Origin: a virus
Length of the DNA stretch: 29,785 bases
Virus record (IMG/VR): IMGVR_UViG_3300027710_000094
Coordinates: 1-29,785 of that record
Direction: 5' to 3' (one strand)
Below, in pieces: positions 1,297-12,949 of the stretch. The stretch's first letter is position 1, and each line of letters starts with the position of its first letter. Made by a program: the position numbers and the translations under genes. The notes below the pieces were generated by a model, which saw only the letters and a list, made by a program, of their open reading frames with translations, made no database searches and was not told where the DNA came from.

Positions 1297-1674
1297 TTAG
1301 TCTTTGGAGTAGTCGTTATGCCAGTACCGCTTGTGCTTGATGAGGTATTTGTTGGCCTTTAGCCAATTGAAGAAAGACCTAGCCGTACACATCAGTTGAT
1401 CCGGATGCTGTGCTGTGGCACGATGGCAGAGTTCAAGAACCATGCCTTGTGGGATGCGCCTAGGCCACTCTCTGAGAATAGCTTCTCGGCGTGGGATGTA
1501 CTCGCTGTTCCACTTTAGGAATTGCTCGATGAAGTCTATGTCAATTCGCTCTGGCTTCATCTTCTCGATGTACCAAAGTCTCCGATATTCGCTGTAATCC
1601 TCGGGATATCTCTCGTACAGTTCGTCGAGGTACTCCCGCTGCTCTTCGGTCCAATCGTCGGTCTGGTCGCTCAT
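1297..1674 (-). CDS. hypothetical protein (125 aa)
   Basis: Unrecognised soluble protein. The N-terminal half is acidic and rich in Tyr and Glu (EEQREYLDELYERYPEDY), while the C-terminal half is basic and aromatic (FFNWLKANKYLIKHKRYW), giving a strongly polar charge layout. The last 40 residues could form a small winged-helix-like domain. The ATG at 1674 overlaps the stop of the upstream gene (ATGA) and is preferred to the upstream in-frame ATG at 1698. The N terminus reads MSDQ, one of several MSD starts at coupled junctions in this genome. Confidence 0.65.
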   Translation of the reverse strand: MSDQTDDWTEEQREYLDELYERYPEDYSEYRRLWYIEKMKPERIDIDFIEQFLKWNSEYIPRREAILREWPRRIPQGMVLELCHRATAQHPDQLMCTARSFFNWLKANKYLIKHKRYWHNDYSKD

Positions 1675-2030
1675 AGGTTTGAGAAGCAGTTGCGCCAAAG
1701 CATGGAGTCATCCTCGAACTTGATGTAGCCGTAGCGTATCATCGTCTTGATGTAGGACTCGGTCTTGGTCTGGTCGGCCGCGTTCTTGGATTTGTCGATG
1801 AGTTCCCGCAGCTGGGCACGGCTGAAATGGGAAGGCTTCTTGGCCAGCCATTCTCTCATCCAAAGACGATGCTGTTCGTGCCTGTCGGAGATGGCCTTGC
1901 GGCCTAGTTCGGCGAGCCTGAGCATCCTGGGTCGGTTGGCTTCCCACATCTGGCGATAGCGCTCCTTCGTTTCGATGATCTCGGCCTTCGTCAGCCTTCG
2001 CGGTTTTCTTTGCCTGTTTGTGTTGTTCAT
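1671..2030 (-). CDS. hypothetical basic protein, possible winged helix
   Basis: A 119-aa protein, strongly basic at its N terminus (NRQRKPRRLTKAE), followed by helical segments rich in Arg, Glu and Trp. The end, around YIKTMIRYGYIKFED, resembles the recognition wing of small winged-helix proteins. It is the first gene after the repeat-bearing spacer at 2031-2267, so it may bind or be controlled by those repeats; this rests on position only. The leader just before ATG is CTCTCCAACCC, an example of the A/C-rich early leader without Shine-Dalgarno. Confidence 0.65.
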   Translation of the reverse strand: MNNTNRQRKPRRLTKAEIIETKERYRQMWEANRPRMLRLAELGRKAISDRHEQHRLWMREWLAKKPSHFSRAQLRELIDKSKNAADQTKTESYIKTMIRYGYIKFEDDSMLWRNCFSNL

Positions 2031-2108
2031 GGGTTGGAGAGTTTACCCTGTATCTTGCATCTGACCCAGAGCCCGCCCGGCGTAAGCCAAGGGCTAGGGC
2101 TTCTGGGT

Positions 2109-2135
2109 GGGGGACTGCATTTGTATTTGTCCCCC
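2109..2135 (-). other. perfect 7-bp inverted repeat, hairpin candidate
   Basis: The arms are GGGGGAC and GTCCCCC around a 13-nt AT-rich loop. No T-run follows on either strand, so it is not a standard intrinsic terminator. It sits 8 bp from the 12-bp repeat block and may be part of the same control or origin element. Confidence 0.4.
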
Positions 2136-2142
2136 TAACGCT

Positions 2143-2190
2143 TTGATAAAGGAGTTGATAAAGGATTGTCTATTACCCTGTCTATTAGCC
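2143..2190. repeat. four tandem 12-bp units (iteron-like)
   Basis: On the plus strand the units run without gaps: TTGATAAAGGAG, TTGATAAAGGAT, TGTCTATTACCC and TGTCTATTAGCC. The first two differ at one base, and so do the last two, so this is two adjacent pairs with one common 12-bp period, slightly more than one DNA turn. A partial further unit beginning TGTCCTT follows. The block is AT-rich for this genome and noncoding. It is a candidate binding array for an initiator or repressor. Confidence 0.6.
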
Positions 2191-2267
2191 TGTCCTTGAA
2201 AGTCAAGAGATGGGTGCTATTTTGACCTGTAGGGCGTTTTGGGGTGGTTCGGCTATGTTGCCTTGTC

Positions 2268-3614
2268 CTACCCGACAAAACGCCTTGGCGACCCCTTGGC
2301 GGGGCTGGAATAGGCATCCTGCTGGACGGACAGGGTCGTGCTTCGGCGTTCCCAAGCGATGCGTCCCTGTTCGCGGGCGTGTCGGAGGGGGATGGCGGAC
2401 GTGAAATTGCCTTGGTCGTCCTTGAGTCCGGCACGGCCACCGCGCTTGGGGATGCGGAGGGTGTAGAAGGGCTGCTCTTCGGCCCCCTCGGCGGTCGGGT
2501 CTTTGGTCAGCACCATGACGGCACGATGCCAGTTGGCGAGCTCGGCGGAGCCAGAGCCAGCATAGGCGAGGTCGGCGAGGGACGTTGACTTGTCCTTGGC
2601 GGGCTTCGTCGTGTGGTGGACGGAGAAGAGGATGACCCCCGTGTCTTGGAGGACGGGCTGGATGATGTGGCGCAGGAAGTGGGACGCGGCTTCCTGATCG
2701 GAGAGGTCAACGCCGGCGAACCCGAGGATGGGGTCAATCCAGACGAGGTCGGCCTTGTGGCGGGTGACGAGCTCACGGAGCAGGACGCCGAAGGCCTCGC
2801 CAGTCCGCACGGCCTCGCGGTAATAGAAGACACGGTCGGCGAGTTGGTTCACGATCTGCGAGCCACGGGCGATGCCCATGCCGTCGAGCGTCCCTTGGAT
2901 GCCCTCCGCGACGTCCATCTCGTCATTCTCGGATTGGATGATGACCGAGGTCAGCGGACCCTTGCGGGACTTGATGCCGAAGAAGTCATGCCCAGGAGCG
3001 AGGGCGAGGGACAGGGCGGCGTGGGTGACGAGGGCGGACTTGCCGGCGCCCGTCTGGGAGACGAGGAGGCAGGAGCCACCGCGGCAAAGGAAGCGGTTGC
3101 CAAGGACGCAGGACGGGTCTTGTTCCTTGTCGGAGGCGACCATCGTGCGGAAGTCGAAGGCCTGTGAGGTTTCCTTCCCCTGCCCCTTGCGCCGTGCGAG
3201 GGACTTGGCAAGTTGCTCTTGGGCGAGGATGATGGCATCGGGGTCGGCCCCAGCCTGTTGGGTGACGCTCAGGACGGCCTTGGCATACTCCGCAAGTTTG
3301 CGTAGGTTAAGGGCTTTAATCACCGCATCCGTCCAAGCCTTGTTCGGCTGGATGAACTGCCCGGTCGTGGACAGGTCGGAGACGGTGAAGGCCTCGACGG
3401 GCGAACCGATTTGGCGGAGGCGTTGGCTGACCGTCAGTTCGTCTGGGGTCGTGCCTTCCTCGACGAGCGCCGTGATCGCGGAGGCGATGTCCTGATTGGT
3501 CGGCTCGAAGAAGTCGGATGGGATGAGGCCGTCGGGCAGCGGGAGCCCTTGGGCGATGGAGACGGCAAGGATATGCCGTTCCGCATCGAGGGCGGAAGGT
3601 GGAGGGAGTTCCAT
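2268..3614 (-). CDS. replicative helicase-like ATPase (DnaB N-domain plus RepA/AAA_25-type core)
   Basis: Predicted 448-aa ATPase that would unwind DNA at the fork or load on the phage origin. The N terminus resembles the DnaB N-terminal domain (ALDAERHIL, then SDFFEPTNQDIASAI). The core has a Walker A motif SQTGAGKS at residues 186-193, a Walker B strand LVWIDP at 290-295 and the SVHHTTK motif near 331-337 typical of RecA-fold RepA/AAA_25 helicases. The frame extends upstream to 3704, but that would overlap the previous gene by 62 bp. The ATG at 3614 leaves 28 bp and keeps the whole DnaB-like domain. No primase domain is visible. It lies beside the repeat-rich spacer, which fits an origin role. 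Confidence 0.8.
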   Translation of the reverse strand: MELPPPSALDAERHILAVSIAQGLPLPDGLIPSDFFEPTNQDIASAITALVEEGTTPDELTVSQRLRQIGSPVEAFTVSDLSTTGQFIQPNKAWTDAVIKALNLRKLAEYAKAVLSVTQQAGADPDAIILAQEQLAKSLARRKGQGKETSQAFDFRTMVASDKEQDPSCVLGNRFLCRGGSCLLVSQTGAGKSALVTHAALSLALAPGHDFFGIKSRKGPLTSVIIQSENDEMDVAEGIQGTLDGMGIARGSQIVNQLADRVFYYREAVRTGEAFGVLLRELVTRHKADLVWIDPILGFAGVDLSDQEAASHFLRHIIQPVLQDTGVILFSVHHTTKPAKDKSTSLADLAYAGSGSAELANWHRAVMVLTKDPTAEGAEEQPFYTLRIPKRGGRAGLKDDQGNFTSAIPLRHAREQGRIAWERRSTTLSVQQDAYSSPAKGSPRRFVG

Positions 3615-3642: not shown

Positions 3643-3909
3643 TTAGGTTCGCCTGCGTCCAGCCTTTTCGCCGTAGTGGGCGGTCGGGTAGGGCTTGGCG
3701 TCACGGCGAAGGACGACGCGGTAGATGCGTTTCTCGATGAGTCCGAGCTTCATTCCCTTATGGATGGTGATGCGTGCGGCGGTGCGCTCCATATTCCAGA
3801 CCTTGGCCCAGCCGTTGATTGTGCGGAAGCCCTTCGGTGGGGTCTCGGCGGTCTGGTGGATGGCGGCCATCACCTTGACCAGGAGCGGGTCGGGTTGTCG
3901 GCGGCTCAT
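3643..3909 (-). CDS. small winged-helix-like DNA-binding protein
   Basis: An 88-aa basic protein upstream of the helicase gene. The segment GFRTINGWAKVWNMERTAAR followed by IHKGMKLGLIEKR looks like a helix-turn-helix with a wing. Its size and position fit a helicase loader, initiator or local regulator, but I cannot assign a family. The start is coupled by ATGA to the upstream gene. Confidence 0.65.
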   Translation of the reverse strand: MSRRQPDPLLVKVMAAIHQTAETPPKGFRTINGWAKVWNMERTAARITIHKGMKLGLIEKRIYRVVLRRDAKPYPTAHYGEKAGRRRT

Positions 3910-12779: not shown

Positions 12780-12949
12780 GTGGTGTATTGGGTACGCCAT
12801 TGAGTTATGAGGTCTTTAGATTTAAATACAAGACCAATCTTCTAAAAAGTTTAGGGACGCCATTAAAGACGCTTTAGACCCCCAAAGTTTCCAAAGGACG
12901 CCACCTAGGACGGGTTATGGAAACCCCCATTTGACCCCCTTGGCTTGGC
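12780..12949 (-). promoter_or_regulatory. candidate early control region
   Basis: A spacer between the late and early gene runs, AT-rich close to the early genes. It contains the inverted repeat GGTCTT/AAGACC around an ATTTAAAT core (12811-12835), tandem TTARRGACGCY-like units (12851-12884 and 12893-12903), a GGGTT-TCCAT-AACCC hairpin near 12911-12926 and repeated GGGGGT runs. Sequences such as TTGTAT and CATAAC could form a weak promoter reading leftwards, but no consensus pair is present. The position fits an early promoter with operator sites. Confidence 0.4.
12811..12835. repeat. inverted repeat with AT core, operator-like
   Basis: GGTCTT and AAGACC arms flank a 13-nt spacer containing the palindrome ATTTAAAT. 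The total length of 25 bp suits a dimeric repressor site. It lies 32 bp upstream of the first early start. Confidence 0.4.

Follow-up and report, generated by a model that had tools for sequence, protein, structure and literature searches.

A tandem 12-bp repeat and hairpin element exchanged together with a winged-helix gene: a candidate replication origin in uncultured phages

What is the role of a short tandem repeat in the longest noncoding stretch of a phage genome, next to the gene of its replicative helicase? We have investigated this question in a 29,785-base IMG/VR virus record with lambda-like head genes (the window, by which we mean the whole stretch of DNA analysed). The original prediction described four 12-bp units of two types, situated near a 7-bp hairpin, and interpreted them as a candidate origin in which the two unit types could be sites for two proteins. 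In our gene set the spacer (2031-2267, 237 nt) is indeed the longest noncoding stretch of the window. All recognised genes of the window lie on the minus strand, and the spacer is therefore downstream of the helicase stop codon and upstream of the small gene at 2030-1671. The helicase contains an AAA_25 domain (PF13481, match at 1.1e-14) and a DnaB N-terminal domain. In all loci that we read, a helicase gene directly precedes the element, even where the kind of helicase changes from a DnaB-like protein to a longer AAA_25 protein (L067, L089 and L099), and the element is followed by small genes and then by TerS and TerL, so that it adjoins the replication genes and opens the late operon. The predicted position beside the helicase is thus correct as far as adjacency goes, although, as shown below, the array goes with the downstream winged-helix gene and not with the helicase. 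In seven loci (L067, L089, L093, L094, L099, L105 and L108) the helicase upstream of the element is longer, about 640-660 aa, and the approximately 390 residues which precede AAA_25 in these proteins are possibly a primase part. No primase was recognised among the scanned proteins, which make up part of the proteome. We also noted an inverted repeat (GGCGTTTT / AAAACGCC, window 2233-2240 and 2277-2284) which spans the 3' end of the helicase gene and the start of the spacer and is partly retained in other lineages, for example in L055 and L061.

Both predicted pairs of tandem units are real. Tandem Repeats Finder reported them at 2143-2165 (TTGATAAAGGAG, 100%) and 2167-2194 (TGTCTATTACCC, 93%), each with period 12, and in the 237-nt spacer this period gave 25 of 36 matches as against 14.5 +/- 1.8 in shuffled sequences, a score reached by none of 500 shuffles; the second-best period was 6. 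Other 12-mers in two copies are present within genes of the window, but the shuffles, together with the 12-bp arrays that relatives have independently at this position, make it hardly credible that these are chance repeats with no function. The register of the array was fixed by three divergent relatives, L038-L040. Read on the minus strand, the window has five gap-free 12-bp units in one register (2195-2136; Table 1), so that the repeats stand but their predicted number does not. Five units are likewise present in L038, while L039 reads GGACAATCGTTT / ACACAGGGGTTT / ACACAGGGGTTT / ACCAAATCGTTT / GGACAATCGTTA and L040 has GACAATCTAATA and near-copies, four times, both on the coding strand. Unit 3 combines the head of one predicted type with the tail of the other. 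As judged from this sequence comparison, the two types are opposite ends of a single degenerate array, and the relatives show one degenerate iteron where sites for two proteins had been proposed. The array segment has 34% GC in a 60% GC genome and is among its four most AT-rich 50-nt stretches; the AT-rich part is the array itself, with no separate AT-rich block beside the repeats. The genome is richest in AT in another noncoding gap, at 12801-12949 (26% GC over 50 nt).

Table 1. Positions of the element, its neighbouring genes and the exchanged segment in the window
Feature	Position	Strand	Basis or remark
Helicase, DnaB-N + AAA_25, replicative, 478 aa	2268..3704	-	Pfam PF13481 + PF00772, PHROG 19; flanks the cassette, outside it
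Unit 1, GGACAGGCTAAT	2184..2195	-	Sequence, periodicity; register from relatives L038-L040
Unit 2, AGACAGGGTAAT	2172..2183	-	TRF, periodicity, relatives L038-L040
Unit 3, AGACAATCCTTT	2160..2171	-	TRF, periodicity, relatives; bridges the two predicted types
Unit 4, ATCAACTCCTTT	2148..2159	-	TRF, periodicity, relatives L038-L040
Unit 5, ATCAAAGCGTTA	2136..2147	-	Sequence; same position in L038, L039, L040; abuts hairpin 1
Hairpin 1, 7-bp stem GGGGGAC/GTCCCCC, 13-nt loop	2109..2135		Stem arms 2109-2115 / 2129-2135; equivalent in nearly all relatives
Hairpin 2, ACCCAGA..TCTGGGT, inner stems, + strand apex GGC-GTAA-GCC (GNNA loop)	2064..2108		Spacer fold, DNA energy, conserved layout
Candidate cognate protein gene, 119 aa	1671..2030	-	AlphaFold2, winged-helix matches, co-exchange with spacer
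Second small protein gene, within exchanged cassette in window-type phages	1297..1698	-	Homology to L008/L011 resumes about 1302-1310
Exchangeable cassette (approximate): spacer element + winged-helix gene + gene 1297-1698	1302..2276	-	blastn breakpoints against L008, L011

We compared about 80 related loci, which were fetched via the helicase and via the downstream protein. The layout is kept in these relatives: one to five units with a core of about ACANTCC are followed by hairpin 1, hairpin 2 and a start codon, and the sequences themselves are unrelated. Relatives other than those mentioned above have two to three units whose core is similar (GACAGTCC, GACATTCC, CAACTTCC, CTACTTCC, TTAAAATCC), which terminate almost always in TCCGTC or TCTGTC. 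In each of the genomes examined, tandem matches to the core on the sense strand occur at the element only. Do phages with the same helicase also keep the repeats? In part they do: of 30 non-redundant elements of relatives, about 19 have 12 as their best period, and some have 11. However, the helicases of L025, L026 and L028 are 92-96% identical to that of L027, yet their cassette is without a clear 12-bp array. The same holds for L032 and L110-L117, and in all of these loci at most one unit is recognisable. L025, L026, L028 and L032 represent a natural array-less variant, which has a single AAATCCGT unit and two hairpins, TATAC-TAAC-GTATA and GGGCG..CGCCC.

The 7-bp hairpin was found where it had been predicted (hairpin 1), but the larger hairpin 2 had been missed. 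The array, hairpin 1 (2135-2109) and hairpin 2 (2108-2064) follow each other without a gap, and relatives have the same order of array and hairpins with different stems. Within groups of relatives, double-sided pair changes were seen in 7 of 26 pairs (22 sequences) and in 6 of 20 pairs (7 sequences). Do the hairpins form in RNA or in DNA? The pair of hairpins could function in the late RNA while it is being made, either by antitermination or by controlling translation of the winged-helix gene as its leader; the 12-bp units would then be promoter parts or protein sites. The conserved pairing immediately 5' of an open reading frame would suit such an RNA element, as would the RNA fold of the window spacer, which is stronger than that of shuffled sequences (z -3.5); among six spacers tested, the z-scores of whole-spacer folding were strong for the window and L024 only. 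The loops point in the other direction. Among distinct triloop hairpins in the element, 19 of 30 have a T-N-C loop, compared with 51 of 792 elsewhere in these loci, which served as control DNA (Fisher 1e-14, a value that overstates independence, as close relatives are among the distinct hairpins, although about ten have unrelated stems), and none of the 30 has G-N-A on the sense strand. The middle base of the T-N-C loops may be any of the four letters and their closing pair varies. T-N-C on the sense strand is G-N-A on the other (+) strand, and the closing pairs on the sense strand (TTGT-TTC-ACAA, CTCA-TCC-TGAG, TTTG-TAC-CAAA) forbid UNCG loops, which fits a G-N-A loop in DNA of the other strand rather than an RNA structure. 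Exceptionally stable DNA mini-hairpins are those with GNA or GNNA loops and two or more G-C pairs (PMC4686876), and for extrusion by supercoiling the N4 promoter hairpins must have, on the template strand, a loop with 5'G and 3'A that is closed by a C:G pair (PMC4496689). Taken together with the T-N-C rule, these properties lead us to read the hairpins as DNA structures and not as RNA structures. In the window itself, the GTAA apex of hairpin 2 fits only the wider GNNA rule, and the 13-nt loop of hairpin 1 is not GNA. The energy of hairpin 2 with DNA parameters is about -16 kcal/mol; nearest-neighbour DNA energies hardly differ between the + and - strands, a comparison that is no test of the GNA point because the parameter set gave GNA loops no general benefit. 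An RNA element is also not favoured by the mixed G-U versus A-C departures (11 to 3 in G1, 0 to 5 in G3), and a search of Rfam gave nothing above chance for the element. Considering all this, we find an RNA function improbable. The use of the G-U and A-C counts for a decision between RNA and DNA was dropped, as they are mixed and biased by the folding program. The put RNA of HK022, which acts in antitermination, resembles the window only in its layout of two adjacent hairpins.

More can be said about the protein partner of the array, for which the products of 1671-2030 and 3643-3909 had been suggested. In pairwise comparisons, helicases which are 94-98% identical carry unrelated modules of element and winged-helix gene with sharp edges. 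For example, the helicases of L010 and L011 are 98% identical and nucleotide identity is 94% until 24 nt past the helicase stop codon; homology then vanishes across the array, the hairpins and the winged-helix gene and is back, at 89%, 19 nt before the winged-helix stop codon. Similar mosaicism is present in L024/L007, L018/L019, L027/L028 and L004/L011. Between the window and L008, homology ends 9 nt before the helicase stop codon and resumes at about 1310, and gene 1297-1698 is therefore included in the cassette of the window. In the opposite case, L038 has its cassette in common with the window (73% over 1 kb), with helicases that are only 35% identical. When 78 loci were compared, the distance between spacers showed a partial r of 0.67 with the downstream protein versus 0.40 with the helicase. 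By these sequence comparisons, the site and the winged-helix protein move together as a cassette. The mosaicism and the spacer distances point to the 119-aa protein as the most likely partner of the array, rather than the helicase or the 88-aa product of 3643-3909, so that of the two suggested candidates only 1671-2030 is the one co-exchanged with the array. The helicase, considered as a partner of the array, is ruled out by the mosaicism.

In the AlphaFold2 model of the 119-aa protein (33 relatives, pLDDT 90), a basic N-terminus precedes two long helices, and a winged helix forms the C-terminal part. Together with the exchange data, the model makes this protein a candidate iteron-binding initiator or regulator. 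The family had no match in Pfam or NCBIfam and no useful match in PHROG. A structure search with the model returned generic winged helices only, with Z about 6; in BFVD it matched one uncharacterised protein of an uncultured phage (E 8e-5). A sequence search of the PDB gave only chance matches of the calmodulin type. After the cassette gene there are more small proteins in the window (1297-1698 and 588-1277), for which C-terminal HTH folds are probable; by eye, the product of 1297-1698 looks like the C-terminal part of the 1671-2030 family.

The array, the hairpins with their loop rule, the conserved layout, the co-exchange and the predicted winged-helix fold are established in this analysis. 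How might they work together? We hypothesize that the element is a replication origin built of iterons and DNA hairpins, with a cognate winged-helix initiator, forming an exchangeable cis/trans cassette; we believe and doubt this in equal measure, and it remains the best single explanation, without the two proteins for two unit types of the original prediction. An origin is supported by the period-12 array beyond chance, the conserved layout, the loop rule, the co-exchange, the neighbouring helicase, the AT-richness of the array and the comparable layout in the isolate P8625, described below. As in iteron origins, tandem direct repeats lie in one register in noncoding DNA of the replication region (two to five units in relatives). 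The linked gene that is co-exchanged with them is a candidate for a cognate initiator, with a predicted binding to the repeats. The winged-helix protein (1671-2030) would bind the 12-bp iterons side by side and melt or bend the adjoining DNA, whereupon negative supercoiling might extrude both hairpins, whose loops are GNA or GNNA in most relatives, mainly on the template (+) strand. The extruded hairpins could then be loading or priming structures for the neighbouring helicase and a primase. Lineages would swap the cassette as a unit, since a site needs its matching protein, whereas nearly every helicase of the group would suffice. More tentatively still, and leaning towards doubt, we suggest a new class of phage origin, in which a small initiator of two helices and a winged helix reads a degenerate 12-bp array, two supercoil-extruded GNA-loop hairpins prime or load, and specificity is diversified by swapping of the cassette, in a manner like incompatibility, on a constant helicase background in many uncultured, probably verrucomicrobial, phages.

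Some observations count against an origin, namely the lineages without a clear array, the loop of hairpin 1 in the window, the lack of a recognised primase among the scanned proteins, the strong whole-spacer folding z-scores in only two of six spacers, and the place of the element at the junction of replication genes and late operon, where a promoter or operator is expected. Could the winged-helix protein instead be an autoregulator or a late-gene switch which acts on the array upstream of its own gene? That gene would then be the first of the late operon, the hairpins would shape a promoter or leader, and exchange of the cassette would change regulator/operator or immunity-type specificity. 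A repressor with its operators would predict equally tight co-exchange of site and protein, which is explained as well by an operator as by an origin; the element does lie immediately 5' of the winged-helix gene, where the replication genes give way to TerS-TerL, and GNA-loop hairpins are known from N4 promoters (PMC4496689). On the other hand, a sigma-70-like promoter near the array was no better than chance, though host promoters may differ, and a switch would often use more sites than the single place per genome at which the tandem core was found. The N4 case requires a giant virion RNA polymerase; the largest ORF of the window is TerL with 597 aa and no likely gene is longer. We regard an operator or promoter cassette as unlikely on balance, but as a serious alternative. 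The suggested turning point of GC skew does not help to decide: the sign of 4-fold GC skew changed at the element in none of nine genomes, cumulative and 4-fold skew were monotonic or noisy, and a small local step after the element looks gene-specific, so that skew is uninformative here.

Direct repeats of 12 bp with a winged-helix partner also call to mind a centromere- or packaging-like site, at which the protein would coat the repeats for segregation or packaging. TubR binds in this way to direct repeats of tubC as a winged-helix protein, a parallel to the 12-bp array. However, no gene for a cytomotive NTPase of the TubRC/ParRC type, nor for one of the ParM/TubZ/ParA type, was seen among the neighbours by ORF reading (the neighbours were partly profiled), TerS lies a few genes downstream and is not adjacent, and the genomes appear to be of phages and not of plasmids. 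Such a site seems to us very improbable.

Returning to the origin hypothesis, how does the cassette compare with known systems? In lambdoid modules (repressor/operators and O/ori), as here, a binding protein's gene and its DNA site are replaced together by recombination; the lambda iterons are inside gene O, whereas the site in the window is intergenic and has DNA hairpins. The oriV of IncQ plasmid RSF1010 has iterons, the initiator RepC, the helicase RepA and ssi hairpins for the primase RepB'. It resembles the window in its iterons and hairpins and a hexameric helicase, and would do so in a separate initiator if the winged-helix protein is one, but its iterons are 20 bp long. RepA belongs to AAA_25, the type to which the helicase of the window also belongs. 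No RepC-like match was found for the winged-helix proteins in Pfam, NCBIfam or PHROG, and no relatives of RepC or RepB' were recognised in the window, whose proteome was partly scanned for a primase. We know of no recombined RSF1010-type cassette. The hairpin promoters of N4 are formed by short DNA stems whose template-strand loops run 5'G..A3' and are closed by C:G, and which supercoiling extrudes (PMC4496689), as we propose for the hairpins described here; most hairpins of the relatives fit the N4 triloop with its closing pair, the window having only the GTAA apex. N4 promoters are, however, read by a giant virion RNA polymerase, none of which fits in the 30-kb genome of the window, and have neither a 12-bp array nor a cognate winged-helix gene. 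In archaeal plasmids of the pRN family, the origin is a stem-loop that lies 3' to the replication gene, and an origin of this kind was proposed in the same work for phage BIP-1 (PMC4234260). It is the nearest described origin in this position with conserved structure and variable sequence, and involves DNA binding by a winged helix, as we propose for our candidate. It differs in consisting of one stem-loop of about 100 nt without a 12-bp array, and in having initiator, primase and SF3 helicase in one protein; we found no exchangeable cassette of site and protein described for it (PMC4234260). The window has a DnaB-N/AAA_25 helicase upstream of the element and no Prim-pol/SF3 protein, and with a replication protein of another kind it is not a pRN1-type member. 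In the literature we found no described system just like the repeat-hairpin cassette.

If the element is an origin, it would allow origins to be recognised in a large group of uncultured phages without a studied member, name the initiator gene and bring into the start of replication a step with DNA hairpins like that of N4. The naturally swapped cassette pairs on a common backbone make the specificity of site and protein directly testable, and even if the sites are operators, nature offers in these pairs a clean series of sites matched to their proteins. Protein searches gave no cultured relatives of the window helicase or of the L013-type winged-helix protein. A search of host genomes with the helicase alignment gave none, and the winged-helix alignment gave one 5-kb contig, from an Opitutae MAG. 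The phages probably form an uncultured, lake-type group with verrucomicrobial hosts. As a host hint for the group, the uncultured Opitutae MAG contig CAIYEN010000062.1 (L120) encodes a protein 93% related to the L013-type winged-helix protein.

A similar arrangement is present in the Verrucomicrobia phage P8625 (NC_029047), where an array of short repeats and a hairpin lie directly between the primase/helicase gene and the gene of a small HTH-like protein, with TATCGGC occurring eight times within 220 nt. It differs from the window in its 7-8-bp core, irregular spacing, unrelated sequence and other HTH protein. Its TerL is 25.6% identical, and layout and TerL suggest a relation, which we take as a parallel in layout without claiming homology. 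As far as a word search shows, the P8625 paper does not discuss the TATCGGC array, and repeats of this type gave one unrelated match in viral contigs. The array is an origin candidate in an isolate. It lies at 32780-32894 plus 1-105 of the record (L137), between primase/helicase and gp01, with the hairpin ATCGGCACTCTCTTATAGAGTGCCGAT; the ends of the published record fall inside the array, and the layout was joined across them.
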